DNA from: Colius striatus
Taxonomy: Eukaryota; Chordata; Aves; Coliiformes; Coliidae
NCBI RefSeq assembly: GCF_028858725.1
Contig: NC_084760.1
Span: forward strand, 77,692,367-77,756,366
Direction of reading: 5' to 3'
DNA: 64,000 nt
In this document: one piece after another, positions 6,001 through 59,649 of the stretch
Layout: each line of letters opens with the position of its first letter
How positions within the stretch are numbered: position 1 is the stretch's first letter
Made by a program: the position numbers and the translations under genes
Notes under the pieces: model-generated
What the model saw: the letters and a program-made list of their open reading frames with translations, nothing else
Databases searched by the model: none
Told to the model about the DNA's origin: nothing

Positions 6001-6935
6001 TTGGTTCCTGAAAACAAATCACCCTTGCTGGACTGCAGAATTTCTATACCCTGCTAACAAGCGTATCCATTTTTCCATGATTTGATGATGCTTTTGTAAA
6101 TAGGTCCCCAGGTGTAACTGAAGTGTCTGTAACAGAATTCAGTGTCATCAAGACTCCAGCTGGATGGGAAGAGCTGTATTACTATGCAGCTCCAGAGATG
6201 ATTTACTACCTGACTGACAACTTGCAATATAAACATTAGTCCAAGCATGATCTTGTCCCAAAACCCCGCCTATGCAGGGAGCCAGGAGTCTTCCTGCCAC
6301 GCGCCATAAATCGTTTACAGTTTGCTCATGCCCATACATTTGAAAAACAGCTGCGTATCAGGGATTAGCAGTTTGCAGAAGGCCCGTGCGGGGGCTAAAT
6401 TAGGGTCTCTTGCCCTGATGGTGAATACCGGTGTGGGAATAGCAGGAGTGCTTCTCTGCAGTGGAAGGCAATTTACTCTGGGAATAGGGGCTGGCTGCAG
6501 GGGATCTATGAGGGTACAGTGGCCGGGGAAGAGCGTTGGATTGCACCACCTCATTTTGGGTTCAGATGCCTGATTGATAGCTGCCTGGTGTGGTGGAGGG
6601 TTCAACAGTACAGTGTTAAATGTGCAGTTTTTCAATTTTATTTATATATTTATTATTTTAATACACATACACAAAATGCAAGCGGACTACTTCTGTCTCC
6701 TAGGAGCTGAAGGATGATAGAGTTTTTGGGTCATTTTATTTACACTGTGATGAGTGGTTACCCTTCTGCCAGTCCATAGTAGCAGAACTAAATTATATAT
6801 AAGGCCATCTGGGGCTTCACAACTAGTTTTCAGCATTTGATAAAATGTTTTACTATGTCACTTGGGTTTACTACTGCTTTGCAACTTCAGCTGGCTTTGT
6901 ACTGGCTGTGATAATTTATCTCCTGGAGTTTCTAA
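1..6935. other. Noncoding stretch, no gene supported
   Basis: I see no conserved protein, RNA gene or convincing exon here. All open frames are short (under about 125 codons) and look like chance frames in both directions. An AATAAA occurs at 3067-3072 on the + strand, but no coding exon precedes it. A GT-rich tract lies at about 4609-4635. The stretch is upstream of TJAP1 on its strand, so it may contain its distal 5' noncoding exons or introns; that is inference from the position of the first coding exon only. Confidence 0.6.
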
Positions 6936-14700: not shown

Positions 14701-17700
14701 TCTGATGAATAGTACAGGGGATAGCTCAAGTTTCCATGGCAATGCTTCTGAATGTGCTTCTCTCACCAGAGAAAGAGGGACTTTCAGTTGATTAAGGTTT
14801 GAGGATTTTGTCTGAGAAAGGAGATGATGGTGAGACTGCATGTTAGTTGTTTGCCTGCCTTTGGGTAGTGCCTCTGATACAAAATCTGGAGAAAGAGGAA
14901 GCTGACATTTGGCTGATGGCAGAGATGGACTATGTCGTGCAAACTACATCTGGACTCCTGGGTATGCTTAACTGTTCAGCTACAGATGCAGCTGCACAAT
15001 CACCCAACAGTTAAGCCTGTACCATTCTCTGCCTCTCACATCTGACCATCTGCTAGGGAAAAGCTAATTAAACCAAAACGATTCTTGCTGGGATTAAACC
15101 CCAGCAGCAGAGAGAATTGAGTATAGTGCAAATATTGTTCTCCTACTACTGGATCAGGGTTGCTGCTTTATTTGTTCTTATAAAGAATTGCAGGCTATTC
15201 AACTCAAATGCTGTCAGGTAGGTGTTTAGCTCATGCACACTTTCATTTTCTTTTCTGTCCCAACAAGATGATTTGTGTTTTAGGTGCAAGAAATAAGGCT
15301 GTGTGTAGTTGGATTTTCCTGCAGTTCCTTTCTTATGACAGCTGACGCTGTTTTTCTTTAACGTGGAATTTCATGCAAAAACAGTGCACAAAGCTGTTGT
15401 TCTCCTAGTGCCTCAATTTCTTCAGGTATAGAATGGAAATTGTTCCTGCCTTCCTCATTGCATTTCTTTATGGTGAGTATGAATCCTAGAGCTGGTGTGG
15501 AGCTACATAACCGTATAATTGCTAGAAGCTACCAGTGTGAATCTGTGACTCAAGACCAAACAGTTTATTGCAAAAATGTGCCTGCAGCTCTTTGAGAGTT
15601 GAAATTTAAATCTTGTAAAGCAGAAAATGTGGAAGTGTGGTTCCCTTAGCAACTGAACTCTTGTGTGTACCTACAGTCCACGTTTCCAAGTGATCAGGGC
15701 TTCAAAATAGCTGTTTCAAAGAAATAATAAATAATTAAATGGACTTAGAACTCTGGTTGATTTCATGGCTGCTGCTGGTACTCAGCAGAAGTGACAGCTC
15801 ACCGTGTTGTTCAGAGTTGTGGCACAGTTTAGTTTCTGAAGGCCAATGAGGGATTTGATTGTCTGCAAGGGGCTCCAAGGTGATTTTTGCTATTATCTTT
15901 CCATGCTGAACATGGAAAACTTACACTGAAGAGGAAGTTAGTTCTGTACATGGTAGGTAGCTTGGAGATGGCAGCAGAAGGCAATGATGAGGAGAGAGTG
16001 ATGGGTGAGTTGCTGGAGCGGATGTGAGGAAGGTTGGAGTGAGCTTGAAGAGATTTAATTGAAGAAGGAGGTAGAGATAAAAGTGAGAGTACCAAAAGAA
16101 TGAAGATAATTGATATTCAGGAAGAACAGTTTGGATAGTTTTGAATGAGGAATGGAAAAAAAACCCAGCAATCTTGGAATTGCTGGAATTTTGACAGATA
16201 CATTTCAAGGGGCAATGCTATGGAAACCAAGGAGATGAGGAATGATTTTAGAGTGTAGATTTGTAGGATGTTAGGTCTGTGACCTCAGATTTGTCTTGTG
16301 AATATGCTTACCCTACACTTGGTAAGACAGTTTCACATTTTGGTGGAAGAATGGCAATAGTAAGACCATGCCTGAGGGCAGTTAGATAACATGCTGTAAC
16401 TCCACGCTCCAGTTTGCTGAGATAAGCTCTTGGTGAGCCATACCCTTAGGAATGAGCAAGTGGGGAACATTGTCTTCCTGGTGTCAAAACTGTTCCAGGT
16501 ATGTTGGACATCAGCAAGCAAAAGCTGTGTGGGTGTATGGAAAACAGGGTACAGCACAAGTATTTGTGATCACTCTTCCCCTCTTCCTTGGGGAGAGTAG
16601 AGAAAATATTAGGCTGTGCTAGTCTGAGCATTATTGTGGTGTTCAGTTGGCATAGGAGTAGTAAAACTTTGAAGTCATATAAACATCAACACCTTTAATA
16701 CCTTAATATACCTTGGGTAGTGTGGTTAGCTTGTATTGATTATGAGAGGGAGATGCCACTCTGGGGTTTTTGGAAGAAAAAAACCCCAACCAACCAAAAA
16801 AAAAACCACCTAGGAAAACCTGCCTCAGAAGTAGAAAAGAGCAAAAAAGGGTTAACTTCAATGTTGATAAGGATTTTGGCATTGCAGGGAGGGTTTACTG
16901 ATTTAACTTAATCAGATTCTAAACAGCTGTGATTATATTAGTACAGCATTCTTGTATAGGCGTACTTAATTTAGTTTGTGTCTTGTATCTATCTATTTAA
17001 CTTAAGTTGATGCAAAGTAAAGTGCTCTTAAACTGAATTAAGAACATTTACCCAGGAGTGTTTTACTGCTTTACATTATTTTCTAAGTCAATTTAATTTA
17101 GTACTCTGTGTGTGTAGACAAGACCTTGGGGAAAAAAGCTGATCCTTTTTATTACTTGCTGAACAGTATGTCATGTTTGGCTTCAGCCCTGTGATTGTGG
17201 AATGAAAGAGCCTGTTGTGGTACATGTTGGTGGAGGATGGGCAAATTGATCATTGCAAGCCTTTGTACAACTTGGTTCTTCTTAGCCATGGTGTTCAATT
17301 CAAGTAGATCGCTCCTCTTTATAAATTGGGTTTTTTCTTGTCTAGAACAAAAATGAGACTCCTGAAATATTTTAAGATTCCTCCTTCACCTGCTGTAAAA
17401 GTGTCTGCAGACCTGTTTAGTGAGCTGTATATGCAGCAAAAGCAACATCTCAAATTTAGCAAATGTTCAATGTTTCAAAAGATTTAGATGGCTGAGCATT
17501 TTGAGATGAACTTTTCTACAGCTAAGCAGAGCTTGAAAGAAAATTCACCCAATATTGATGCTTTTTCCTCATCACTGTCTCTCCCAACTGTGTGCCTCAG
17601 TACATACTGTGACTTAGGCACATACAAAACTCATGGCCAAGGAAGAGATTACTATGTAAGTACCGCAGATGTCAGTTCTCTTGCTGAAAAGGATGAACCT

Positions 17701-22822: not shown

Positions 22823-23563
22823 TACTGTACAGTTTGCCCCACAGAGCAGTTATGCTGTTGTGAAGCTGTTTTTTCCCTATGCTAGTCAAGACCCAGCTTC
22901 AGCATTGTAGTAAGGAAAGGGGCCAGGCAGCTTGTTGGGGCAGGGCCAGCACTAGATCAGGACACCTCTTCTGTTTGTTTTGGCAAAGCCTGAGTTTATG
23001 TGGTCCTGGTTGCCTGCTTGTTCCATTCACCTTCAATCTGACTCCCTGTGTGTGTAAAACTGCTCCACACCCTGCACTTATGTCCCACCTCCCAGGGCTC
23101 GGTGTCACAGACAGGGAAAATGCAACACAGCAGCAGAAGAGCATCAGGGAAAGGAAGGCTTCACAGCAGTCTCTGTCATGCCAGTGGCAGAGGGATGGCT
23201 GCAGAGCTACACTCTTACAGTTGACTCCCACATTGACCCAACTCTCTTGTAGTGGCGGGTACTTCTGGGTTTGAACAGAGAGGAAGGTTATTTCTGAACT
23301 TGTGTTATATCCCTGACTGGCTGGATGCTATTTAACAGAAGCTTGTTAGCAGCAAAGTAGAGCATAGCATGCTGTTTGCTGGAGGTAGCTTGCCTTCCTT
23401 TCTCCTGGAGATGTGGGTCATCACAGCTGTAGGCACAAGGAGGTACTGTTTTGGTCCAAGCAAGGATCTGACAACTGCCAGCTCATTTGTAAGTGAGAAG
23501 CACAGCCTCAAAAGGACGAGTGAGGTAATTACAAAACTTCTGTACTAAAGGCTTCACAGTTAA

Positions 23564-23826
23564 CATAGAATTATAGAATGGTAGCTGTTGGAAGGGACCT
23601 CTAGAGATCATCCAGTCTAACTCCCCCGCCAAAGCAGGTTCACCTAGATCAAGTCACATAGGAATGCATCGCAGGTGGGTTTTGAAGACCTCCACAGAAG
23701 GAGACTCCACACCCTCCCTGGGCAGCCTGTGCCAGGGCTCCCTCACCCTCACAGTAAAATAGTTTTTCTTTATATTTAAATGGAACTTTTTGTGTTCCAG
23801 CTTCTTTCCATTATCTTTTGTCCAGG
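23564..23826 (-). mobile_element. CR1-type LINE fragment (3' end, with tail repeats)
   Basis: The + strand begins with catagaattatagaatgg, the reverse complement of the 8-bp ATTCTATG-like repeats that end CR1 elements. It continues with 'ttggaagggacct', 'catccagtctaac' and 'ccctcaccctcacag', as in the copy at 6936-7250. The element therefore lies on the minus strand and keeps its 3' terminus. It is 5'-truncated to about 260 bp and cannot code for protein. Confidence 0.9.
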
Positions 23827-25780
23827 TAAGATTAGCTGGGAGAGTCTCATTTCACTGGAGACTTGTTCAGTTCCTTCTGCCTTGGTTGCTTCCTGGAACC
23901 AACATTCCCTCAAAGCTATTTCTTCATGAATTTTGAGTTTGTGTGGTCCTAGTTACCTGAGTGCCTTGGACGTGTCCTTGCCAGGTGCCTTTCCACCTCT
24001 TGCTGGGCTATGTGGCTAACTTCACTTGCTTTCAGACCTGGTGTCAATTGAGGTAGGTACCTGGAGCTAGATGGCCATCCAACTCTCCTTGGTTACAAAT
24101 ATTCCTTATTTCTTACTTATTTATGGGGTGATATTTCAAACTGGCTGTTTTGATAGATGCTAAGCTATTTGTTTCTTTTCTTCAGGGCATCTGAGTGAGT
24201 GTCCCTGCTTCATGAGGCTTTGAATCTGAGCTCAGGCTGGTAAGTGCTCAAGTCCTGTGGACTACAGAAAGAATTGTGATTCCAGCTTGGGATATCTTCA
24301 TGCACTTCTCCTGTGCTTAGCCTGGCAGGAATTGGCACAACTGTCCCCTAGATCTTCTGTTTGATGGTGGGGTGTTGACAAACCTGCTTCTGATCAGGAT
24401 TTCAACATTCCTCTTTGAAGAAGAGAAATATCTTTCCAGCAAGTCACACTCATCTGTTTTGCTTGGGGAGGCAGTGGAATGTGCATTTGGTATGCTGGAT
24501 GTGATTTTTCTAAAGCTTAGGAGATCTCTTCTACTCAAGTCTATAAAGGAGAAGGGATGTTGAAGGAATGAGTGCAACAAGGGGGATTCTCCAGCATTCT
24601 TATGATGATTTACAAGTTAGTCCTAGGAAGTTGTTCATGTCTGTGGAAGGGCATGAGAAACTTTTGTGAGCTTGTTTTTAGCAATGTGGAGGACAGCTTG
24701 CAAGTGTTCCTGTGAAGTGTAAAGCCTGTTGTTGCTTGGAGTCACTCTGTGCTTGGTGCAGACACTTCACACTTGCCAGTCTTCCCAGGAGATTCAGTCT
24801 AAGTGTCAAGAAGACATGAGGCAAGAGTGGATATGAACTGGGGAGAATTCTTGGGGCTTCAGTTAGACACTTAACATGTAAAACTCTACTGGCCAAAACA
24901 CAAAGGAAGCAAAGCCTGCTAGGTCATTGTGAATGGGAATTACATGGTCCACCCTGTAGAAGAGGAGAGGGGATGATCTGAGTTGAAGTGGGTCCTGCAC
25001 TTTGAAGTGCTGTAGGTCAGACATGAGGATTGTGGAGGTGCTGGGTTTGATCAGTGTTAGGATCCAGCAAGGGAAAGGGGAATGAGAAGCAGGCGCTTAT
25101 CACAAATATAGGAAGACTCCAAACAATGCATGTTGTTATCAGAGAAAGTCTGATATTGGGCTCTGCAGGGACTGCTTGACATCCAAAAGACTTGTGTGTA
25201 CAAAGGGGTGATTGAAATCCTGACTGCCTGAGGGGAAAGTCTTCCTGTCCTCCATTGTAGTCGCAAAGAGGTGGAAAGGAAGGAGATTCTTCCACTTGTG
25301 CAAGATAGCTGTTTTTCTTCCAGCCCAGTTTTTGGACTTGTACGCCTACTGCTCCTGAAGCAGGAAGAATCCTGCCTGGTGCAGCTTGGGTAAAGAGGCT
25401 AATCTGGTCTTTCCACTAATGGTGTACTGCTTTATATTGTAAAATCTGGCCTTAAGTACCAATGTCAATGGCATTGGTCCTTAATTTGATCCCACCTCTG
25501 ACAGTGGGAGTGGTATTTTCTGACAGTAAGCAGTTGTGAAAGTATGGAACCTCCTTTTGATGAGTCTCCTGTGGTCTGCTCCAGTGGGGTTCCAGTGTAA
25601 GCCACAAACTTCTGTGTTTGGGCTCTTTAATGGCTGGAGTCTCCTCCCACATAGTCCCTGCTGACAGTGACAGAACGTGATCAATAACTCCTGTTCCAGC
25701 TGTCACTGCTGCCTGTAAGGCTTGCAGTTTCCATATTGGAAAAGGCCTTTCCTAAAGAGCCTAATCGATACGCTGCTGTG
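23827..25780. other. Noncoding stretch upstream of TJAP1, no gene supported
   Basis: No coding exon is visible. Open frames on both strands are under 95 codons and unlike known proteins. It probably belongs to the TJAP1 5' noncoding region. Confidence 0.5.
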
Positions 25781-25798
25781 AGGTCTGTTCTCGTTTGC

Positions 25799-25807
25799 TA
25801 TATATAA
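25799..25807 (+). promoter_or_regulatory. TATA-like box, possible proximal TJAP1 promoter
   Basis: The sequence TATATATAA lies about 290 bp upstream of the first TJAP1 coding exon. A GTGAGT donor-like site follows near 25,828, and the coding exon itself is unusually CpG-rich, which would fit a nearby start of transcription. There is no proof that it is used. A distal CpG-island promoter outside the window is an equally good explanation for TJAP1 expression. Confidence 0.2.
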
Positions 25808-26126
25808 TCTGGACACACAGAGACTACGTGAGTGAGCGTGTGTAGAGGGGGGAGAGGATGTGCCAGCCCTCTGCTCTCACTGGCTGGGAGAAGGACACAG
25901 CTACCTCTTGCTTTGCTCCCTCTCCCGCAGCTGCTGCTCAAGGCTTATGGACACATCCTTTCCCAGCTCTATTCCCACTCTGCATGGGGACCTGCTCTGG
26001 GATTCCAGGGGAGCCATATTCCCACTGGGTCCTTACTAGGGTTCAGTGGAGCGCCTGTGACTCTCTCTTGTGTGCACTTTCTGCTATTGGTAGGTGACCC
26101 ACTTTCGGAGGCAGGCAGGTGGGAGG

Positions 26127-27569
26127 ATGTCGACGAGCACGGCTCCATCAAAGAAGCCTTACCGCAAGGCACCGCCGCAGCACCGCGAGGTCCGCCACGA
26201 GGTGCCCATCATCCGCGACGACCAGGATGGAGTGGTCTTGGCCGAGCAGAGTCAGGTAACGGCTTCCCGGGTGGCGAAGGGCTTAGCACCATTGCACCGG
26301 CAAACGGGGTTTAGTTACACCGAGGCAGGCCAACTCAAGCAGGCGGAGGGGTTTGAGGTTTGCAACCTCAACTTCTCCTCGTCATGGTCCCTGGAGTCCA
26401 GCAGCGAGAAGGAAGTGGCAGGGTGCAGAGCGGAGCTGAACATCAAGAGCCAGACTGTCTTGCCAGCGCTTCCACATGGTGGGAAGACGGGGCAGCGGAG
26501 AGGGAAGCGGTGCCCAAACCGCAATCGTCGGCCCCTCAGCAAATTTGTGAGCCGTAGCATGGAGACAGTTGTGGTGGCTGGAGACAAAAGACACCATCCT
26601 ACTTGCTCTTTCAAGAGCAGAAGCCTGGAACGCTCACTTATGTTTAAAGAGCCCCCTGAAGTTCTGACACCAAGGAAGGCTCGAGTCTCTTCTACACAGC
26701 TGCCTCTCAAAGGGATCCTGAAGCAGACCAACGTGACAGGCCCATGCCCTGAGACTTTACACAAGTCCCGCTCAGTAGAGACTCTCTCCTGTGGCCGTGG
26801 CTTGTGCAAGTCCAGTGAATCCCAGCTCTGCCTCAGCCGGAGGGAGAAGCGTTCGCTGGAGCATGGCAGCAGCAGCGCCGCTGACTCTGCCAAGCGCAGG
26901 GAGAAGATTGCAGAGGAAAAGCTGCAGTTCTCCAAATTCCTGGATGAGATCACCCGGCGGGTACTGAGTCCCATCCGCTTGCGCTCACTAGGAGAGACCA
27001 GGGCAGCAGAACAAGACCAGAACCCTTCCCTTTCCCCTAGAAGCTCTATGCCAGAAGGCCAAGGGGAAAGTCACCTGCAAGGGCTCAAATCCAAACGTGC
27101 AACAGAAAGATCCCCCTGCCCAAACAGAAGAAAAGCAGGAAAGAAATGTGGGGGGCTGGGAATGGCTGTGTGCCAGAGAAAGTGTGCTGAGGAGGCTGAG
27201 AGAACTTCCAGACTAAGAAAGAAACCTGTCCTTGGGAGGAAGAACAGTAAGGAAAAACTTTCCTTGGAGAGAAGGGCAGTAGATGTGTGTCAGTATGAGC
27301 TGGCAGACCGGGGGCTGGCAGGGACATCGTCTGGGCAGCAGCACTCACTGTCTTCGTGGAAGAGCAGTGCAGAGGGCAGAAGGGATGAAAGCAGTCCCTG
27401 TTCACAGCTATTACAGCCACGCCACCTGTGTACTAAACCTGGGCAGAAGCATGCAGTGGATCCAAACCACCCAGAGAAAGGATCCTTCTCCACTCCAACA
27501 CACTGGAGTCGAGAGGAGGGGCCTACCCCATCTAGATCCTCCCCTTCCTTCAGCCTGGCACTAAAAAAG
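26127..27569 (+). CDS. TJAP1: Alternative long first coding exon of TJAP1 (candidate isoform)
   Basis: The frame opened by the TJAP1 start codon does not stop at the canonical donor (CAG|GTAACG, 26256). It runs on for 438 codons to a second donor, AAG|GTAGGT at 27570. Both donors are phase 0, so either joins the 29259 exon in frame (…KK then EPLTDAERMK), giving about 1,069 aa instead of 631. Without splicing the frame stops at 27632, giving a 501-residue protein. The extra region is basic and Ser-rich. It repeats an SRS-M/L/V-E motif near residues 142, 164, 214 and 243 and contains KFLDEITRRVLSP at about 270-282, which looks like a helical interaction motif. I do not recognise a family. The length and patterned content argue against chance; whether it is transcribed cannot be seen here. 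Confidence 0.6.
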
Positions 27570-30500
27570 GTAGGTGCCAGGGCTATGGGCTCAGAGGCTA
27601 AAGCCCCTGCCTGGGTCTCATCTATTCTGTAATACCAGTGGGGAGAATGAGAGCAGGCCATCAGACCTCATCCCGTGGGTGCTCAGTCGTCAGAGGCTGC
27701 TCTCTTGTGGGTGACAGATAGCGCCGTGCTTCCCTGGGAGGAACCAGCTTCGCTTTGGCCCCAGGAGTGAGGAAGTCAGGAGCTGGTACTGTTCTCTACA
27801 CTGCAGACTTCCTTCCTAGGTGTTTGCAGGTTGGAGGCCCTTCTGTCTGTGGGGCAGCAGGCAGCTGCAGGAGGCAGGCACCTCTCTTGTCAGAAGGTAT
27901 TGGGGTGCTCCCAATGCTTTGTGTGTGCCCTGTGCTTGGCTGCCTTGGCATACTGGATCTTTGTATGATGCAGTTTCAGGTCTTTGTAAACCTTTACCTC
28001 TTTTTTCGAGCTTGTCTCAGGGCCATTGCCTCATTTTGCTAGGAATCCCATTATCCTGTTTGCTTGATGACTAGCATCTGCTGTGTATGTATCTGGTGGG
28101 AGTAGGGGAGGCAGATGCTAAATAATTCTGCATGAATTAAGCAATTGTCCTATTGGAGTTAGGATGTAGGAAGAGACTGCATTGATGGTTTTGTCTTCGT
28201 GGACAGAAGGATGTATGCAGGCAGTGTTCTTTTAAAGTGTGAATTGATGAAGGAAGCAACCCCATGATGTCTTAGGGCTAGGATGTTGGGGTGATTTGCC
28301 TTTTATAATATTGCTAGCAGCTCAACAACCTCATCCACAACTATCTGGGGCATGGCCTTTCAGCCCATACCTAGCTGTGACACTTAATGGACAAACTAAA
28401 GTGTGGTAACATGTTGAGTTTTTGCAGTGCTGTTGGTACCAAGCACCAAAAATAATCCCTTGGCACCTTGGACTTTGTGAGAATGGTCACAGCCTTGGGC
28501 TTTCACAGAAAATATAGTTGCTTTTAGTGCTAATTAAGTGTCTCCCAGCTGTGCTGGCAGGCAGCAGCTATCTCGTGGGTTAACACAGAGAGTGCGAAGG
28601 AAGTGAGAAGAGCTGAGCTATGTGTTCTTGTCACTGCACTGTGTCGCCTTGTTCTGCAGATCCCTGCTCCAGCCACCTCTGAGGATCTTGCCCAGAACAT
28701 TAATTTCTTTCACAGGCTTTTCTGACCTCTGGTGTTTCTTGTGCTATTCCAGAACAGTTACAGTGGCTGGTTTCAGGTTTGCAGAACAAAACCCTTTTCA
28801 CAGCACAGTCTGGGTGGTGCAAATGCTAGACGCATTTTCCAGCTCCCAAATGATTCTCTCTTCTTCTTTTTGTTGGGCTTCAAGGGTGTTGTGATTGCTG
28901 TGGTGACAATGTAATCCTCAGCCTATACTGGCCCATGAGGTTCCTGCTGCCCATGAACCGTGGATGTGGAGAAAGCTGAAACACCAGCTAAGGTGATGGT
29001 GTTGCAAGAGATGCTGAGATTGCACCATGGGAGAGTAAAGTTACCCAACTTGTGTGGTGGTTTCCAGTCTGGATCTTCCATCCTGAACCAGAACACACAG
29101 TTGTGTTTACAGATGATAGCAGCTCTAAGCTTACCTAGCATGACCTGTCAGAACGGGTCACAGGCGAGGGTCTAGGAGTGAAGACTTCCCTTTAGGACAG
29201 TATGAGAGACCAGCTCCTTCTCTCAAAGAATCTCACAGCTGTTTTCTTCCTTGTGCAGGAACCCTTGACGGATGCAGAAAGGATGAAGTAAGTGTCCTGC
29301 TCCCCCTTTATGCCTGTCATACTGCAGCTGTGCTGATTCCTCACACTCTGCCTGTGCCACCTGCACAGAGAAGCTGGCTGGCCCTGCAGACTCCTCTCAG
29401 ATCTTCAGTCATCTTGGGTCCATACAGGCAGAGCTTTAGTCTGTGCATTGCCAGCCTTTGCCTTGTATGTCACTCCCCCTGAAGGGAAAGGGAACATAGA
29501 CCCCCAGTGCAGGTGCAGGCAGAGGGGTTGGTGGGCATGAAAGTAGGAAAGGAAACTTTTAATCTAGGTGGAGAGAGGAGAGCCTTTTTTAACCCTTCTT
29601 GTTGTCACTGTTTTGGTGTAAACTACCAGAAGCAGTGTCCTGAAAACTGCTGATGACAGAGAGTGAGAGCTGGTGGTGGTGTGGGGTATAGACAGCTGCT
29701 AGCACGGAGCTCCAGGGCATAGTGAGGAAAAAGCTCATGCTCCCAGAGGAAGCCATGCTTCTGGGTTTCTTTGAGCAACTGAGCCCTAAGGAATGAAAAA
29801 CAACAGGAAATCCATCTGACCACCAGGCATGTCCTGGCTGGGGAGGAAGGGAGCAGTTTGTATTGGAATGGGGTTGACTGGCAGCTGGGATCACATCTGT
29901 AAACGCACCCTGCCACCTCTGCTCTGGGCTTAAGGCTGTATGGAGGCCTCTTGCCACATATTAAAGGTGTGAGGGCTTTTGAACAGTGTCAGGTGAGGAG
30001 ATGATTATTTTACTCTTTTTGCCTTCAACTCCTCTAACCTGGACTGAGATAAATTATTGAGTGGGTTCCATTCAGCAGTGAGGGATGCTGGAGCTGCACA
30101 GCTCATCTGGCTAGCGGACTTTGTCCAAGCACTGTAACCCGAGAGGGAGCTGGAAGCCATGGCTGGCCAGCTGCCCTGTGCTTTTGTTTGCTCCTACTCC
30201 AAGAGAGCTGGAGTCTCCTCCTGACAGAGGTGCACCTCTGTGTGTGCTGGCATCTCCTGCCAGGTTAGCCTGACTTCCTGAGGCTCCTGTGTAGAGTCTT
30301 GAGCCCTAGAGCAGGGTGGCGAGGTGAGGGTGCGGTGTGGAGTACCCCCCGTGCACTCAGGGGTGCCTTGTTCTTGTGTGCCCTAGGCTACTGCAGCACG
30401 AGAACGAGGAGCTGCGCCGACGGCTGACGTACGTGACAAGCAAAATGGAGGCGATGGAGAGGGAGCTGGAGTCGGGTCAGGACTACCTGGAGATGGAGCT

Positions 30501-33500
30501 GGGCCAGAACCGGGAGGAGCTGGAGAAATTCAAGGACAAATTCCGTAGGTATGAGAAAGAAAACAAGAGGGGCAGAGTTAGAGAGATCCCTCCCTCCAAA
30601 GACTCCCTCAGCTGGCGTCAGCAGGCTGTGCCCTGGTGTGTAAATCAAAGGCGTGATGCATCCTCATAAAGGCAGGAGCACCCTCAGACTTCTGGGCAGT
30701 TAAAGGCTCTGCAGCCACTGCTACCTCCAGAGTATAGTATAGGAATGCTGCCAGCATAAGGGGCTGACAACAACAGGGAATTGTTCATCTGTTGACTGTA
30801 AGGCAGGATCCAGCTTGGATGGTTACCCCACGTGTGCAAAAGGAGCCACTGGTGACTACAAGAAAATACACCACTGCTTTGCCTGGAAAGTATCTCCAGT
30901 TAAAAATCAGTGCCAGTCACTAGTCACATGCTTATACATGACATAGCTCAGGGAAGTCCTCTGAAGTCATTCACCCCCTTCCCCTGCAAGATCATCCCGC
31001 CTGGCCAGCCTCATCTTGCTTCCAGTAACTTTGGGTCTGAAGGCCATTATGTGGCAGAGGTGAGGCATACTTAATATGACTGGTTGTCTTAGTACCAAGC
31101 TGTCTGTGGAGTTGGTGGTTTGCTTGGCAGCTGTGAAGGGGGTTGGAGTGGGTGCCTGACATCCTTCCCGTGGATACAATCTTATTTCTGTAGGCTGCAG
31201 AACAGCTATACTGCTTCCCAGAGAACCAACCAAGACCTGGAGGAGAAGCTGCATGCCCTGGTAAGTGCCCTGTTAAGGCACTACAGAGAGGTGGAAAAGA
31301 CCTGTGTGTTAGGAGCAGAGTGGGGGAAGGGGCCCTGGCTTTACCTGGTGGATGGGGTGAGGGGTGAGATTCTGGCCATGCATCTACTCCCCATTCTGGC
31401 TGGTGTCATGAACTGTTTTCTTGATTTCCTGAGCCCCTATTTGGTCATGCCCATGAGCTTTGGTTCCCCACGACATAATTGCATGGTACTCCGTCATGTT
31501 GCTTCAGTCCCTCTCAAAATGCCAGGGGTGTGTCAGCCAGTCTCTGGGTGGTCATCCTGGGGGGCCAGGGACAGTCAGAGCAAAGCCAATGTGCGTGTAT
31601 GTCTGTTGTGTGCATTCATAACACTCATGGCTGTTTCTTTTCTCTCCCTCCCTCTCTCTCTCTTCTCCCCACGCTGCTGCTGGCACACGCTGGGTGCACT
31701 CACCTCTCAGGCCTCTCTCAGCCAAAGCTGGATTTTTGCAGTTGCGTCTTTTCGTTTGTGTGTTTTTTCTTTTTCCTCTTTACGTGTCTCAGCCTGTTGG
31801 TTTCATTATCAGTCTCACAAACACCATCCCAGGTGGAGGGGCCCCAGCCCTCGTCCAGCCAAGGGCTCACCTGGGATCCAGCAGCTGCCCACAGATGCAG
31901 CAGGTCCCAGCTTGCAGTGCTCCATCTTAAGAGCGTTTGCCTCTGAGCCAGCTGGAGTGTGGCATGTTGGGAAGCGGTGCCCATAAGCTGTGGCACCGCA
32001 GGAGATGTGGATGACTGTGAGCTTCATTTGCTCCCTTTCCTTCCCCTTCTGGGCTGAGAGCAGGCAAGTCAAATAGTGGAGATGCTGGTTGCCTCTGTGT
32101 AGCCCAGGTTGCTTCTAGCACTTGAATTTCTTGGGTTTATATTCATTATGCTGGTGCCTGGAGTCTGCATACGTGGGAACATTGTCTTCCCCTACTCTTC
32201 TCTACCTCCCACGCACAGCTGGGCCCTGGTGGTCACAACCTCAAAGCACTTTGGGCAGGGTTGGAAAAACTTCTTGAGTAGTGTTGGGCTTAAACTCTTT
32301 CAAGACAGTGTCCTCTCTCTGCCAAAAAAAAAAACCCAAACCCCTTTTGTCCATTCAGCATTGACTGCTGGATCTTTGTGGGCAGTATTCTCTTTCTGTT
32401 GCCTCAGAGAAAAGGGCTGAGTATCACAAGCTCAGAGGTCTTTGCTGCCAGAGGTAGGATGGGATCAGTTGCTCAAAACCACTGGCTTTCCACAGGCACT
32501 GTATGAACTAAGGCACAGAAAACATGGTTGTGCTGTAAGAAGAGATACTGCATTAAGGAGGTTCAAACTCAACCTGTTGTCTCTGAGGCTAGCAGAGTGA
32601 CTTTCTCCACTCAGCCTCTGGAATTCCTCCCTTGGTGAAGAGCCAAAGCTGTCCCCCTTGTCTGTCTGTCTGTCTAGAAGTTTCTGTATCCCAGCTAAAC
32701 ATGTTGTGCTATGCTTGGGCTGAGGTGGGTGGTGAAGCCAGATTCTTCTGTGCCAAGGAGATTTACACCTGGTGTTCTTGCATCCCAGATTAAAAAGGCA
32801 GAGATGGACCGCAAGACGCTGGACTGGGAGATTGTAGAGCTTACAAATAAATTACTTGATGCCAAAACCACCATCAATAAGCTGGAGGAACTCAATGTAA
32901 GTGTCAGTCTGCAAATGGCTGTGGAAATGACTAAAAGTGTGCTCTCCTTGGTTTGATGTATTTGGTTTTTTGAGCTTATATCTTGACCTGAGTCCAGACT
33001 GTACCAACGGGAGGAGTCATTTACTTTAGAGCTGGGAGGGAGCTGATGCTTTTTGTACACCATTAATATAGAAGTTCCTGGATAGGATCCTTGTTTCTAT
33101 AAACTCCACCTAGTCTGTCTGCAAGGTGCCTGCCATCAGATACTGTCTTCAGGCACGGCTGAGAGCTCTGGGATGGCATAGCAAGTCTGGTGGGACTTTG
33201 GGAGATTTATATTAAAATCCCCAGAGGGAGAGGAAGTTGAAACACTGACAGACCATATGCTTGGAACAAGGACTGGAGTTGAAAGGGACGCCTTGGCTGT
33301 GGAGAGGAGGGAATAGCAGATGCTGTCACGAACCATTCATCAGATGCCTCCTTCTGCTTCTGTGCAAGCATCTAGTCAGGTAGGGCCTTTTTAGGTAAGA
33401 GATGTGGCCTGACACCGTTGCACACCTGTGCCCTTTCTTGCAGGAACGATACCGACAGGACTGCAACCTTGCAGTGCAGCTGCTCAAGTGTAACAAGTCC

Positions 33501-36500
33501 CACTTCAGGAACCACAAGTTTGCTGATGTGAGTAGCAGTCTTGCTGCTGTGTGGTCAGGGCTCATGGTCTCTGACCTGCATCTTGCTTTCTCTGCAAGGC
33601 TGTTGGCCTCTCATCCTTCAGCCTCAGATAGAAGTGGCGGGGGGGAGGTTCCTGTTCCCACTCCCACTGAGAAGGCAGCACAGAGCCTCTGCCAGCTCCT
33701 CTTTCACACCAGCTCCATTTCACAGCTCAGCCAAGAGCTGTTATAAAAAGCACAATAACCTTGAATTTGATAGCCTGCTGGATGCCTGCTGGGAGCTGGC
33801 AGAAGGAGAGACCTCTCTCTTACCCTGCTCAGTGTTCTCCCTTTCCTCACCTGGCCACATGGAAGGGTTATGCTGCCTGATAAAGAGTCAAGCAGCAGTA
33901 GTTTGGCCCTACTTCCCTTCTTAGTCTGAGGAGAAATGTGGGAGGCAGCATTCAGGGTGTCTTTCAGGCCTCCTGAGCAGACATTCATACCAACTCATAC
34001 TCCCCTTTGTGGGGTCTGTTCAGCTCACGTTGCCCTCAGGGTGAGCAGCGGTAGAGTTTAGGCCCCCCACATTAGTAGCATCAGTTTTTCATGTTGGAAG
34101 TATAATTCAGGCCCTTACCCCACCTCTCTCTTTGCCATACCTCTAGCCTCCATCCCTTCTTACGTTCCTCTCAGCAAACCCATGTGCTTGTCTTTTTTAA
34201 CTTAGCAGGTGACCAACATGTCACCCTCCCCCATTGTGTCTCAAATTAGCACTCTTGAGGTCAGTGTATCAGTTACTGCTGGGGTAACCTTGACCTCTCT
34301 CCCAGCTGTCTCCCCTCCCTGGAGCTTTGAATCCTGCCCCCTCCCCCCCCCCCCCCCCCCCCCCCGCAGAGTGCCACATCCCACGTCAGGGGCTGCCCCT
34401 AGAAGGGGACTGGTGCTCAGAAGCTGTGCAGCCAGACTGCCTCACAGCCAGCTGTTGTCATGGTCCGTGCCCTGTGTTCCCAGCTTGGGACACAGTTTCC
34501 TTCTGTCTGTGATGGGTCAGACCTTGCTGTGCCCTCCGCTGTGCTTGAGTGTGGTGGCCAAGGTGAGAGCAACTTGGCGAGGTGATGAGGAGAGCAGCAG
34601 TGCCCCTGCAGGGGGAGGAGCAGTGCTTACTCCCTGTCCTGCAGGAACCCAGCAGCTCTGGAGAAAGTGAGGAAGTGGGATGCGGTGATGGGGTTGATGG
34701 GAACAAGGGGAGACATTGATTGTGGTCTGTGGGCAGGCTGCCACGGCAGCATGGCTGCAATTACGACGTTCAGGGAGCACCGCAGGTCCCAGCACTGGTG
34801 GCTGTTGAGTCACTTCACTGCAGCCACGGCAGATTTTCCACAGATCAATAGCCCCCTTCCTAGCATGTGCTGTCTAGGCCTTGTCTGTGTGCTCACATGC
34901 GTGAGGGGCTGACCTCATGGACCGTCTTGTCTTGCCCTCCTTGCAAAATGGGGTCTGTGAACCATGACCTAGAACCACAACTGGTGTGACAACTAGAGAG
35001 CTTTGTTAGTCCCTCATGGGGCAGGTTTGCTGTGGAAGGAGATACCTTTCTCAAGGCAAAGTAAGTGCATAGTGAGGTCAAGATAAGGAGTACAAAGTAC
35101 ACACGAAGATTGGTTGGAAAAGGCAGGTTATTTGGAACTAGATGGCTTGCGTGGCAGCCTCCTTCTAATGTCCTTTTCCTTCTCCCTAGCTTCCCTATGA
35201 GCTGCAGGACATGGTCAATAAGCATTTGCACAGCACTCAGGAGTCTGCAGGCCCTGGTCAAGAGGCAGCCCACACCTTGGCTCCGTCTGACATTGTTCCC
35301 ACCTCAGTCATTGCCAGAGTCCTGGAGAAACCAGAATCTCTGGTTCTGAATTCAGCCAAGTCTAGCAGTGGCAGCTGTCCCATGGCCGAGGATGTCTTCG
35401 TGCACGTGGACATGAGTGGAGCCCCTCCTGATGCCTGCAACAGCGCAGGGCAGATGGGGAAGGAGGGAGGAGACGCAGGGAAGCAGCAGAATGGTGGCTG
35501 CAAGCCACAGAGCAGTGTGGAAAGCGTGCCAGAGGAGGTCCCTGCCTTTGAGAAGCTAAGCCCATACCCTACACCTTCGCCTCCCCATCCTATGTACCCA
35601 GGGCGTAAAGTGATCGAGTTCTCAGAGGACAAGGTAAGGATCCCGAAGAACAGCCCCCTGCCCAACTGCACGTATGCCACGCGCCAGGCCATCTCCCTCA
35701 GCCTGGTGCAGAGCGAAGACGAGAGCTGCGAGAGGCAGCGGACGCTCCCCAACAGCCCTGCATCAGAAGGGCGCCGCTCAGCCTCCAGCTGTTCCTGTCA
35801 GCAGTCCCCCAAAGCAGCCAGGGCACACGGCTCTTCCCAGAGCAGCCCCTTCAGCAGCCCCCCCCAGGTTCCGAGCGCTTTTGCCAGCTCCGCCAGCTCT
35901 GAGGAGGACCTGCTGGCCAACTGGCAGCGCATGTTTGTGGACAAGGCGCCCCCCACCTCGGAGCGGGTGCTGCTGAACCGCACGGCTTTCAGCCACGACA
36001 CGGCCCCCGAGCTCCAGAAGCGCTTCAGCCGCTCCATGCAGGAGCTGGGGAGGGCAGCCTCGGCTTACTCGGATGGTGAGGAGTCCACGCAGAGCTGCAG
36101 CTGGACCGTCAGCCGGGACTCAAGCGTGGACACAGACAGCACCGAGTCCAGAGCCCGCAGGAGCCATTTCTCCTCAGACTATGGTACAGATTTCTCCCAG
36201 GATGAAGCCCAGAAGCTGTTGCAGGAAAGTGGTGGAGGCACCGCGGAGCCTGGAAGCCCCTCACCAGAAAAGCACAAGGATTACGTGGACCTTGGCTTGC
36301 CTGAGAGCCCAGCTGAGGAGAGAGAAATGTTGCTCCAGGGAAGCAAGGAAAGCAACCGAGGAGGCACCCCAGAGGAAAGCGGAGAAGGCAAGGTCAAGCC
36401 TTCCCTCAGTCGGCCGCACCGCAGCCCCAAGAGGATGGGGGTCCACCACTTGCACCGCAAGGACAGTCTGACGCAAGCCCAGGAGCAGGGCAACCTTCTC

Positions 36501-36506
36501 AGCTGA
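26127..36506 (+). CDS. TJAP1: Tight junction-associated protein 1 (seven coding exons)
   Basis: TJAP1 (also called PILT or TJP4) is a coiled-coil peripheral protein found at tight junctions and the Golgi. Coding exons are 26127-26255, 29259-29287 (a 29-nt micro-exon), 30387-30548, 31194-31260, 32789-32896, 33444-33527 and 35190-36506. All have GT-AG borders and join in one frame of 631 aa; the human protein is about 557 aa. Recognition rests on the N terminus KKPYRKAPPQHRE, the EPLTDAERMK segment, a long coiled coil (about residues 53-165, with LDWEIVELTNKLLDAK), CNLAVQLLKCNKSHFRNHKFAD-type sequence, the PYPTPSPPHP and PLPNCTYATRQAISLSLV segments, and the tail SPKRMGVHHLHRKDSLTQ. The Ser-rich last exon is longer than in human. 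The start ATG has A at -3; an acceptor at 26093 would place 33 nt of 5' UTR in the same exon. An alternative long first exon is listed separately. Confidence 0.95.
34343..34365 (+). repeat. Homopolymer C(23) tract in TJAP1 intron
   Basis: Twenty-three consecutive C residues lie in the intron between the 33444-33527 and 35190-36506 coding exons and are followed directly by GCAG. The exact length may be unreliable because sequencing slips on such runs. Together with GCAG it looks like a strong cryptic 3' splice site. The complementary G run could form a quadruplex. Confidence 0.9.
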
Positions 36507-43900: not shown

Positions 43901-46427
43901 TCCTCACCACCTTGCAGCAGAGCTGGAGAAGGGTTGGTTTCTATGGCAACGAATGCCAGGCTCTCTTCTTCCTCCTCCTCCCTGCTCTGCCAGGAAGATG
44001 AAGGAGGAGCGAAGGGATGTGCTGCATCTGCCAAGCCGGCATCGACACTCAAGGCTTTAAGAACAGGGGGAGACGTGGAGGGGCAAACATGATACCAAAC
44101 ACAGTGCAACCAGCACGGCAGCACCTCCTTGCTGCACCTCCCTGCTTGGCACGTGGCGACCTCACATAAGCAGAGCAGCAAGGCTGGCTTCCCCTACAGC
44201 CCAAAGTGCCTGCCAGGGTGAACTCACTGCAGGGGATCAGAAGGCACCAACACAAGGAACCACTCCACCTCGCTAGAGATACCTGTCTAGAGCTTGATCC
44301 CCAGCCACCCACTGGCACAGGCTGCCCCAAGGCTGAGAGAGAGGCAGGAGTGCGGCATCCCTTCCTCCTCCCCCCTGCCCCCCCAGCTTACCCAGGGGGT
44401 TGTAGTCCAGGTTCAGCACACGGAGCTGGGAGCTGTGAGCCACTGCAATGGCCAAGCGTCCCCAGCCTTTGCTTGTGACACCTGGGTTGGCGCTCAGCGT
44501 TAGCTCTTTGAGGCCTGGAGAAGAGAGGGAAGCCAAACCAGAGCCTTAGGGTCACCAAAGCTGTCTCAAGCAAACTAGTTCAGCTAACCAGAGACACCTT
44601 TGAGCCATGTCCTCTGTACTCTGATGGGCTAAAAGTTGAGTCATGTCCTCTGTACTCTGATGGGCTAAAAGATATGGTTTACTCTGACAACTGTTATCAC
44701 ATATTTCACTGCTCAGTGAAATATTCCACTACCTTCAGCGGTAGCCCTTTGTTTGTGCTGTGACCGCTTCATTTCTCTCCTCTCCCAACCTATGTCCTGC
44801 TTACCCTCAATAGCACACACAATGGAAACAAGTAAAGGGTGTGCAAGGTGACAGGCTGGAAAGGGGGGAACAGGGATAGTAGGTTCTGCACCTGGGAGGG
44901 GTGGCCAGCAGAGATAACAGCAGCAGTGGAACTGTGAGCACACAGAGAAGAAGGTGCTGAGGAGAGCACTTGGAGAGTCAGGAGAGGACAGTGTTACCTC
45001 AGCATGTGCCAGCTCTCAGCCTAACTGTCCCACTGGCCTCTGAACACAAAAGATCATCCCCTGCAAAGACCTGAGCCTTGACACTAAGGCTATGGCCATG
45101 CAACTCTCACAGAGTGCACACGCAGGGGCAGGAACAATCCCCAGGCACTGACAATAAAGCCGAGTGAGGAGGTGGGGGCACACCATATATTTTTTATGGA
45201 CATTATCAACACAAATGCAAAATCCTAAATTCAAAGTCCAAGCTGTCCCTTCTTCTGGTTTCAAATTCTCCTCCCATGAGCCAGAAGGAACCTGTTGGTC
45301 TCTGAGTGCCAAACTGCCAGTAGGACAGACCAACAGCAGAAAGCTCATGCCTGCCCAAGGGAGCTGCTCCCCTATTGCTTGGCTTTTCTGCTTCCCTTAA
45401 GTCCGGGAAAGAAATTCCTCAGCCCAGGCAAACTACAGAGCCTGCCTCCTCCAGGGCTGAGGATTTATTGCTGCATGCATCTGTGTTGGGAAAGCTCTGT
45501 CAGTCACTGTGCAGCCCACAATCCCTGGTGCTTACCTGACTTGGCCCCATCAGGCGGCAGGAGCCCGCAGATAAGGTTGATGCCTTCATCACCCAGCATG
45601 CAGTCTCCTAGATCCAGAGCCACCAGCGAGGGGTGGATAGAGAGAGCAGGGTTGAGGAGGGCCAAGCCTGCATCTGTCAGGGGACTCCCGTGGAGGCTGT
45701 ACAGGTAAAAGGGAAAATTACTATGGAGCCTTCTTCCTCACCTGATGGGGAGAAGCAAACTAAATGAGGATTACAAATCCTAATCACAGGTGGGGAAACA
45801 GCACTGGGGAGCCTCTGCTGGGAGGGTCAGTCAGCTGCTATGGTGGCCTTGGCCAGGATGACAGGGTGAAAGGGATGCCAATAGGGCAAGGGTAGCCCCC
45901 ATCACTGGGGCAACCAGGTCGGAGGGGCTGAGACCGAAAGCCGTGGCTGTGCCCAGCTGACAGGGGCAGAGGTAGCTCTGCCTCCCAGCTGGCTGAAGGA
46001 CGAGGGGTTACTCCCTGCAACGTCAAGGGCATTTTTGCTCCAGCAAGATCTAAATTCAGGGGCTGGCACAGAGTTGCAAGCTCCTGAAAGGGCCTGTCCC
46101 CACCTGGGAGGGTTCCGGGGGCACCTCCCGCAGCCGCCCACCCCGCTGTACTCACAAGAGGGACTGGACAGAGCGATTTGTCTTCAGGGCCTCGGCCAGC
46201 TGCTTGACGCGGTTGATGTTGGAGACGATGCCCAGGTTGAGGTTGAGTTGGGCCAGGGAGCGGGACTCGGCTACCCCGCGGCAGACGTGCCCGAAGTCCC
46301 GCTCCGAGAGCTGGCAGCCCCGCAGCGACAGCAGCCGCACCGAGTTCTCCCGCAGGCTCTCGCAGATGTCCCGGATCTCCGCCCCCGACAGCGTCTCCCC
46401 GGAGATCTGGATGGACCCCGGCAGCAT
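40976..46427 (-). CDS. LRRC73: Leucine-rich repeat-containing protein 73 (six coding exons)
   Basis: LRRC73 (C6orf154 in human) is a small protein of NLR-like leucine-rich repeats whose function is unknown. Coding exons on the minus strand, in order, are 46427-46156, 45696-45536, 44514-44392, 43218-43118, 42819-42636 and 41046-40976. Borders are all GT-AG, and the joined frame is 303 aa against about 316 in human. Visible repeats include VRLLSLRGCQL, LAQLNLNLGI, LVALDLGDCML, LKELTLSANPG, LRVLNLDYNPLG and LEVLDLEGTGL. An acidic stretch (SEGEEEEETEA) follows, then a separate 71-nt exon encoding SSQMVLMTSGLGDSLLAETEM, which closely matches the human tail. There is no signal peptide or membrane segment, so a cytosolic protein is likely. 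The start has A at -3 and sits at the edge of a CpG island. The exon 5/6 join (AAC A|AT) is set by the conserved tail. Confidence 0.95.
44606..44671 (+). repeat. 36-bp tandem duplication in an LRRC73 intron
   Basis: Thirty bases beginning catgtcctctgtactctg occur twice without a mismatch, at 44606-44635 and 44642-44671, giving a 36-bp period. The copies lie between the 45696-45536 and 44514-44392 exons. Perfect identity suggests a recent slippage or duplication event, or a local assembly error. Confidence 0.9.
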
Positions 46428-50000: not shown

Positions 50001-51110
50001 GATGACCAGCCTGATGACAGTAGCTGGTGCTGTCTTCCTGTCTTTCACTGCACTTTGGCACTTGTCCAAATGCCACTACAGCTGTATCCTGTCCTGCCTA
50101 ATATAAGCAAGAGACCAAAGGGTGCAGTTTTGACGTGCTGCCTCATGCACAGCTAACTTGTGGGTACACCAAGAAAGAGAAACACTTTGGGGTTTTTTTT
50201 CAGCCTGAATGTAAGGGTGAATGTCTCTGAAGGTGGCTCCTCTCCCCAATCATTCAGAGCTACAGGGAGAGAAAAGGTGCAAGCCAGCTATCAGCTAATA
50301 GCTTTCTGCTCTTGAACAAGTTAGAGCAGGGAGCGAAGGCTACATCTGAACTTCGTGCTTTGCAACATCAGTAAGCTGGGGATATTTGTGCCAACTCTAT
50401 TACCATTGCACACTCCCTCCTGTCTCCATGTTTAATGGAAACACTGGAGAAAAGTTTGCCAGAGACTCTCAAGGCTCCAGGAGTCCTTTCAGAAATGAGG
50501 CCGACTTGGCTTGAAAAGCCAGACGCTACACAGCAGCCTACATGGCTGGGGAAGCACAGTGCTGCTCCTGCTCAAATCAGTAAGGTCAAAGTCCCATGTC
50601 TGGGAGACACAAGAGCAAGCTGCACAAAGGTGGCCTAAACTTAGCCTATTAATATCCACAGAAGATCAGGCACAAGCATGCTGCCCCTACCGTCAGAACT
50701 ACTGTCCCATGGAGCAACATGGGCAGAAGGGTGTTAAGAACAAAAGGTGTTGTGAAAGGATGGGGACAGATACATTTCTGACATACATGGGAGAAGGGAC
50801 GGTGAGATGAGACGGTGGTTTGGACCCAGCCAGAAGAGGGGGAATCAATCTGGACCATGATAAAGAAGAGCATGTGGTTAAACATCATGCTGTTCCTGAA
50901 AATCTACAGAGAAACTCAAGTGCCCGTGCCTCTTGGGCTAGGGAAAAGGTGCCAAAGACACAGGTGACGTATCACAGAACATTTGAAACAGGACAGCAAA
51001 ACACTGCAAACAATCCTGCTTTGAGGACAGGACAGATAAAGACACAGAGACCCAACACCACTCTCCCATTGCACAAGTACGCTCAAATGTAAGACATCAT
51101 TCAGCACCAA
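47031..51110. other. Intergenic stretch between LRRC73 and YIPF3
   Basis: I see no gene, RNA or clear mobile element. A + strand AATAAA near 48,838 has no coding exon before it. All frames are under about 110 codons and unlike known proteins. The stretch separates the LRRC73 CpG island from the YIPF3 3' end. Confidence 0.6.
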
Positions 51111-51116
51111 CATCAA

Positions 51117-51122
51117 TTTAAT
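51117..51122 (-). terminator. YIPF3: Candidate poly(A) signal of YIPF3
   Basis: TTTAAT on the + strand is ATTAAA on the minus strand, the most common variant signal, about 350 nt past the YIPF3 stop. No canonical AATAAA was noticed closer to the stop, so this is a plausible but unproven 3' end. Confidence 0.4.
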
Positions 51123-51470
51123 TCTTCCCTCTTCAGGACAGGAACAGGGCAGATACCCCAGGGGTTACATCAGCAAGCAGAAAGTGGGGTAAAGGACAAA
51201 CTGCGCTGGGAAACCCCAGTGAAACATGCAGGCAACAGAACCACTCTACTCGAGGCAGCCCAGACCTGGGTGGAAGAAGAGCACAGTTCTTCTGAGTCAC
51301 CGAGGTGCAGTCCACTCAGCTGCCCACAACTGCAGCCCAAAAGACAGGTCCAGGAAAACACCACCAAGTCTCCTTCCTGCTGTTCTGTCCTGTTCCTAAG
51401 AGGCAGCAGGTTATTATGGCCCTATGCAGCCCCAAAGAAGTACTAAGGAAGCAAGTCCAAGTCTGTGAAA

Positions 51471-59649
<8,179 letters not shown>

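Follow-up and report, generated by a model that had tools for sequence, protein, structure and literature searches.

In Colius striatus, the TJAP1 gene probably begins its coding sequence with one long exon, 26094-27569 of the window (the whole 64,000 nucleotides of DNA analysed, C3:77692367-77756366), whose 3' part would be an old arm of the gene family and not a bird-specific accident of an intron. The frame beyond the canonical donor at 26255 appears truly coding, since a helix within it, FSKFLDEITRRVLSPIRLRSLG, recurs at two other places in the same genome, in a BEGAIN-type gene on contig C8 and in a third relative on contig C47, with TJAP1-type coiled-coil exons following on the same strand in both cases.

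The TJAP1 locus

The last exon matches the Pfam family Pilt (PF15453) with an E-value of 7.2e-173, which identifies the gene as TJAP1. Its features, all on the forward strand, are as follows.

Before 26094, forward: putative acceptor TAG/GTGACC, from splice context
26094-27569, forward: probable long first coding exon of TJAP1, from the open frame, the splice context and the composition segment 26106-27607
26127-26255, forward: canonical first coding exon, 43 codons, 129 nt, carrying KPYRKAPPQHREVR and ending at the proximal donor CAG/GTAACG
26256-27569, forward: predicted 438-codon extension of the first coding exon, a basic, mostly low-confidence and probably disordered arm
26550-26861, forward: the motif [KS]RS[MLV]E, four times (residues 142, 164, 214 and 241), a recurrence not above residue permutation
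26712-26723, forward: GILK, which fits the SILK-type PP1-docking consensus, a weak lead only
26901-26993, forward: conserved helix, residues 259-289, EKIAEEKLQFSKFLDEITRRVLSPIRLRSLG, from the C47 and C8 matches, the reciprocal searches and the AlphaFold2 helix
27570-27632, forward: in-frame continuation beyond the distal donor, with a TAA at 27630, where retention of the intron would yield a truncated protein
29259-29287, forward: exon 2 (EPLTDAERM.), which either donor joins in phase
30387-30548, forward: exon 3, coiled coil, 162 nt
31194-31260, forward: exon 4, coiled coil, 67 nt
32789-32896, forward: exon 5, coiled coil
33444-33527, forward: exon 6, 84 nt
35190-36505, forward: last exon, Pilt domain (PF15453 match), stop codon at its end

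The seven-exon model runs without an internal stop through either donor, giving 631 aa via 26255 and 1,069 aa via 27569. Exons 3-6 form the central coiled coil, as seen from the in-phase exon model and from the paralogous exons 3, 4 and 6 described below. At the N-terminus, the KPYRKAPPxHR-type peptide KPYRKAPPQHREVR resembles the human peptide KPYRKAPPEHRELR, which binds the PTB domain of Mint1 according to the consulted part of PMC10820826, and this likeness in sequence makes the bird protein a candidate Mint binder.

The open frame and its two donors

The sequence-only reading had claimed that the frame stays open past 26255 as far as a second, in-phase donor, and this was confirmed, with 438 extra codons before the donor at 27569. 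The stop-to-stop frame (26094-27632) comprises 512 codons with an ATG at 26127, and the stretch from this ATG to the distal donor (26127-27569) is 1,443 nt long, ends in phase 0 and can be spliced to the remaining six exons without a stop. Within the extension itself (26256-27569, hereafter the insert) this frame contains no stop, while the other two forward frames contain 13 and 17 and the three reverse frames 13, 3 and 20.

That chance would rarely leave so long a frame open, as had also been claimed, holds under several models. Geometric estimates from the region's own composition put the probability of a read-through of at least 438 codons at 1.2e-8, 4.6e-7 and 2.7e-5 (order-0, -1 and -2), and in simulated 3-kb sequences of the same orders the longest run in any of three frames reached at least 438 codons in 0, 0 and 2 of 5,000 cases. 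Furthermore, the tail of 4,013 stop-to-stop runs (GC below 0.60, insert and last exon left out, 89 runs of at least 100 codons) leads one to expect 1e-4 runs as long as 512 codons across the window. As a control, the frames beyond the five other TJAP1 donors are open for 1, 40, 241, 19 and 72 codons. The 241-codon case, beyond the exon 4 donor (31260-31986), demonstrates that long chance read-throughs do occur here and, together with the weak codon periodicity of the insert, it speaks for a chance open frame in an intron. The small read-through probabilities and the presence of the helix, at the protein level, at two paralogous loci as well as in TJAP1 nevertheless leave this explanation barely credible, and the frame past 26255 is, judged on sequence, very probably coding.

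Scored with a weight matrix, the distal donor AAG/GTAGGT reaches 5.93 and is the only GT of at least 4 in 26120-29257, and the proximal donor, which is without a G at +5, scores 3.5. Both donors are phase 0 and share one acceptor (29259), in agreement with the earlier claim that they are of the same phase. The difference in strength would suit a species in which the long exon is the sole form, with 26255 a decoy donor, every TJAP1 protein armed and no isoform switch, given that the distal site is also the best in the exon and the following intron. This is rather unlikely, however, as the proximal score falls within the range of the five other TJAP1 donors (2.41 to 6.45), and the short product would fit the mammalian TJAP1 layout, as represented by the human sequence. 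A further alternative is that the transcript passes both donors, since the frame continues for 20 codons past 27569 (458 codons past 26255) to the TAA at 27630, in which case intron retention or early polyadenylation would give 501 residues without the coiled coil. This TAA is nevertheless preceded by a strong donor, and past about 27607 the sequence loses its exon-like composition, which makes such a product very unlikely. On the preferred reading, that of a long first coding exon with two donors, either donor would be used in RNA, as suggested by the splice-site sequences.

Composition and codon usage

A mononucleotide (order 0) model, for which the remaining TJAP1 exons (exon 1 in its 129-nt form) and the TJAP1 introns served as training sets, places the best exon-like segment of 23000-31000 at 26106-27607 (score 54), near the predicted exon 26094-27569, and models of order 1 and 2 end the best segment earlier, at 27144 and 27024. 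By the order 0 score, the best segment in 0-23000 reaches 13.6, and the GC-rich gene starts at 52959-57191 reach 121. The higher score of these gene starts indicates that the model reads base composition and not coding as such.

Codon statistics are ambiguous. The codon-position bias of the insert gives a chi2 of 6.3, within the 1.3-8.9 of eight presumed non-coding stretches and far from the 55.6 of the last TJAP1 exon. Codon log-odds from a human usage table yield only a weak in-frame preference over the whole insert (equalled by 19 of 400 and 11 of 400 stop-free nulls), which is clear in the first half (2 of 400 and 1 of 400) and absent from the second (271 of 400 and 273 of 400). The helix exon on C8 is likewise weakly periodic (chi2 12.2), so that low periodicity may be typical of such exons. 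An antisense frame, 26315-27070, was considered as a gene and dropped, as all three reverse frames of the insert fall below the sense frame in codon preference. Taken by themselves, these data would leave the absence of stops and the distal donor as the whole case for coding, and the ambiguity of the codon statistics led to a search of the window's own genome (1.21 Gb, 191 contigs).

A helix conserved at two paralogous loci

Remote relatives of the insert, which the sequence-only reading had left to a profile search, came from this genome and not from known families. No family was found with the long exon in Pfam or NCBIfam, PDB sequences gave no match, and viral, bacterial and archaeal contigs (viral_contigs and genome_contigs), searched by protein and by helix pattern, gave no relative. 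In the whole-genome search with the 438-aa insert at E of at most 10, three of the 11 candidates were the insert itself, C47:6235 (E 0.085) and C8:26653257 (E 3.9), the last of which was dropped as chance for its E-value and the stop inside it; the C8 helix exon was not among them. A shorter query of 60 aa around KFLDEITRRVLSP gave four candidates in the whole genome, namely itself, C47:6235 (E 0.006, 74% identity), C8:44662087 (E 0.02, 53%) and C4:47048106, which lies in a 61-codon frame with E 6.4 and was likewise dropped as chance.

Reverse searches of the whole genome led back to TJAP1, which was the best other match in both. The 45-aa C8 helix found only itself and TJAP1 (E 0.041), and the 45-aa C47 helix retrieved TJAP1 (E 0.0033) besides itself, with two further weak matches (E 1.6 and 3.0); neither of these two queries listed the other's locus. 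Queried in full, the 319-aa C8 frame gave no match in the genome at E of at most 10 other than itself. In pairwise BLASTP, each a single comparison, the helix matches reach E 5e-7 and 3e-8. By Smith-Waterman alignment, none of 1,000 residue shuffles of the insert attained the real score against either C8 (89, best shuffle 85) or C47 (93, best shuffle 69), and the two other frames of the insert align at 32 to 45 only.

The similarity is only about 23-30 residues long. Once the helix is masked, the alignment scores are equalled by 487 of 500 and by 421 of 500 shuffles and no similarity is left among the three exons, so that the support from conservation is limited to the helix and does not extend to most of the arm. 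Within a 21-residue helix block, TJAP1 and C47 differ at 8, 3 and 13 first, second and third codon positions (16 identical residues, 11 encoded differently), TJAP1 and C8 at 11, 3 and 13 (11 identical, 9 encoded differently), and C8 and C47 at 9, 6 and 17 (11 identical, 9 encoded differently). Differences are thus most frequent at third positions, which points to selection on the protein.

The exon could also be real while the C8 and C47 helix matches are convergent or due to chance, which would leave the arm specific to TJAP1. The shortness of the similarity would fit this, as would the single whole-genome E-values of 0.003-0.085 and the failure of whole-exon queries to link C8 with TJAP1. 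The copies on C47 and C8, however, precede TJAP1-type coiled-coil exons of equal length by about 10 and about 89 kb on the same strand, and such paired placement would rarely arise by chance in 1.2 Gb, which renders this explanation improbable in comparison with a helix shared by descent.

The BEGAIN-type gene and the third relative

On C8, the helix exon (44661622-44662548) is open for 309 codons, from an ATG to the phase-0 donor ATG/GTGAGC, has no Pfam match and lies about 89 kb before exon 3 of its gene. Downstream on the same strand follows the coiled coil LQEQKGELRKRLSYTTHKLEMLETEF, which by its likeness to the human sequence is presumably that of BEGAIN, the brain-enriched guanylate kinase-associated protein. 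The gene resembles TJAP1 in having coiled-coil exons that equal TJAP1 exons 3, 4 and 6 in length (162, 67 and 84 nt), in the codon splits of exons 3 and 4, and in bearing the same helix in a phase-0 5' exon. A genome-wide search with the TJAP1 coiled coil gave 13 matches, and the six with E below 0.01 comprise four in TJAP1 and two in the C8 gene. Exon 2 of the C8 gene was not found with one narrow pattern, exon 5 was not found with TJAP1 exon 5 in the fetched pieces (44802001-44808600 left out), and a genome search with the TJAP1 last exon did not reach this gene. The 309-codon exon is possibly a first coding exon of BEGAIN that is missing from its usual description. Mouse BEGAIN is given as 600 aa and 65 kDa in the consulted part of PMC5066261, a size that a 309-aa helix exon would hardly fit.

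C47 is a small GC-rich contig (50,638 bases, 62% GC) with repetitive proline-rich frames. Its predicted helix exon, at about 6189-6456 in GC-rich sequence of low complexity, ends at a weak phase-0 donor (GAG/GTAAAA, score 2.17), and a homologue of the 67-nt exon 4 follows 10 kb later on the same strand, at 16708-16774. This exon 4 was matched only in the fetched pieces (E 0.009, 0.001 and 0.0014), and the 13 matches from the genome-wide search with the coiled coil do not include it; a two-sequence profile did not find exon 3. C47 apparently holds a third relative of TJAP1 and BEGAIN. At both loci, the order and strand of the exons suggest that the helix exon would be spliced to the coiled coil.

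Charge, motifs and predicted structure of the arm

The insert is basic, as had been noted from the sequence (net charge +38, pI 10.1), and its inclusion shifts the pI of the whole TJAP1 protein from 5.8 to 9.0. A single-sequence AlphaFold model is mostly of low confidence (mean pLDDT 45), with a single confident helix at residues 249-289 (pLDDT 92 in the best 10-residue block) and three further, uncertain helices.

Part of the earlier description of the arm did not hold. The recurring SRS motif, which had been read as patterning, is not above chance, given that 507 of 5,000 residue permutations contain some motif that recurs three times, like SRS.E. Likewise, the self-similarity of the insert is not raised (its top score is attained in 207 of 300 permutations and its summed score in 101 of 300), and no tandem repeats were found in the insert. 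The segment KFLDEITRRVLSP had been called amphipathic; it does lie within the helix that recurs at two paralogous loci and is confident in the AlphaFold model, but its amphipathicity does not exceed what composition gives in TJAP1 or C8, and does so only in C47. The helix window QFSKFLDEITRRVLSPIR ties for the top hydrophobic moment across 481 aa, and shuffles of its own residues equal the 18-residue moment in 456 of 5,000 cases for TJAP1, 1,361 of 5,000 for C8 and 29 of 5,000 for C47. As the moment is unremarkable in TJAP1 and C8, it is the conservation of the helix that suggests a docking role.

Two specific docking functions were tested by motif and found no support. AKAP-type amphipathic helices follow a strict h..hh..hh..h pattern with a hydrophobic residue at each place, and this spacing is not matched; the sequence from residue 268 would conform only with T accepted at place 9 and F at place 1. 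SILK-type PP1-docking sites have the consensus [GS]IL[RK], and a PP1 regulator with both SILK and RVxF motifs was not supported, as the scanned insert contains GILK but no RVxF. Background on the SILK motif is given in the consulted part of PMC10066265.

A possible donor switch and its relation to known scaffolds

The evidence can be combined into a mechanism in which the spliceosome would choose between two sites that each join exon 2 in phase, a weak proximal donor (26255) and a stronger distal one (27569). Use of the proximal donor would give the short form, a mammal-type TJAP1, and use of the distal donor would insert the arm behind the predicted Mint-binding peptide and ahead of the coiled coil, turning an acidic scaffold into a basic one. 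The arm would be 438 residues long, basic and mostly disordered, with one conserved helix of about 30 residues, which may act as a docking element for a putative partner.

The bird gene resembles mammalian TJAP1 (Pilt, tight junction protein 4) in its 43 first codons with the Mint1-type peptide, its coiled coil and its Pilt domain. Human TJAP1, a protein of 557 aa, is not known to carry an arm or helix after its N-terminal peptide and ahead of the coiled coil, and in this the bird frame, which has both there, would differ from it. The consulted part of PMC10820826 describes TJAP1 without such an arm, as an unstructured N-terminal region, a central coil and a proline-rich C-terminal domain. The sequence-only reading had proposed an undescribed isoform defined by an insert. 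The in-phase donor and, very probably, the coding frame of that proposal stand, but its polarity should probably be reversed, with the short form derived from an apparently ancestral long exon. We infer this age of the arm from the two other loci, where the helix likewise sits in a 5' exon that ends in phase 0, which makes the long exon probably the older state.

Optional long coding segments that are mostly disordered and enlarge a scaffold are known from exon 4A of 'big tau' and from the giant ankyrin exons. TJAP1 differs from these in that an alternative 5' splice site would lengthen its first coding exon, and in that a short helix is kept across paralogues. An exitron is coding sequence that can be removed as an intron, with both splice sites within one exon, whereas only the donor lies inside the TJAP1 exon.

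TJAP1 and BEGAIN are scaffolds of poorly understood function, and their usual descriptions may omit an N-terminal arm. If the reading is true, the conserved arm would be a new interaction site for both proteins, and the choice of donor within one exon would be a simple switch. The localisation of TJAP1 is disputed, with the tight junction, the trans-Golgi and the cis-Golgi proposed in the consulted part of PMC13305319. It can be suggested, tentatively, that the vertebrate TJAP1/BEGAIN scaffolds all stem from a long-armed ancestor with a docking helix, that mammalian work, including the dispute over localisation, has dealt with arm-less forms only, and that the donor switch in the first exon gates the engagement of a partner.

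A predicted long bird TJAP1 may already be present in RefSeq, Ensembl or UniProt. Among the matches listed from open-access papers, no long TJAP1 or BEGAIN helix exon is named in titles or abstract openings, and the claim of novelty is confined to the shared helix and its meaning, which did not turn up among the same matches. In addition, the case illustrates that a paralogue search within one genome can settle the coding status of a long intronic frame where codon statistics cannot.

Other features of the window

Between 50051 and 51914, the A-over-T skew is 0.21-0.23 in 1,314-base windows, matching the insert and the last TJAP1 exon. An equally high skew is found in 15 of 1,194 such windows, 11 of which lie in 50051-51914, and otherwise only in the insert and the last TJAP1 exon. 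At 56956-57135 there is a gene start with an RNA polymerase Rpb3/Rpb11 dimerisation domain (Pfam PF01193, E 7e-8), probably POLR1C. On the opposite strand, the frame 55434-56792 has no Pfam match and is presumably YIPF3, in which case the two would share a divergent promoter. Finally, two near-perfect tandem copies of a 36-base unit occupy 44600-44671.
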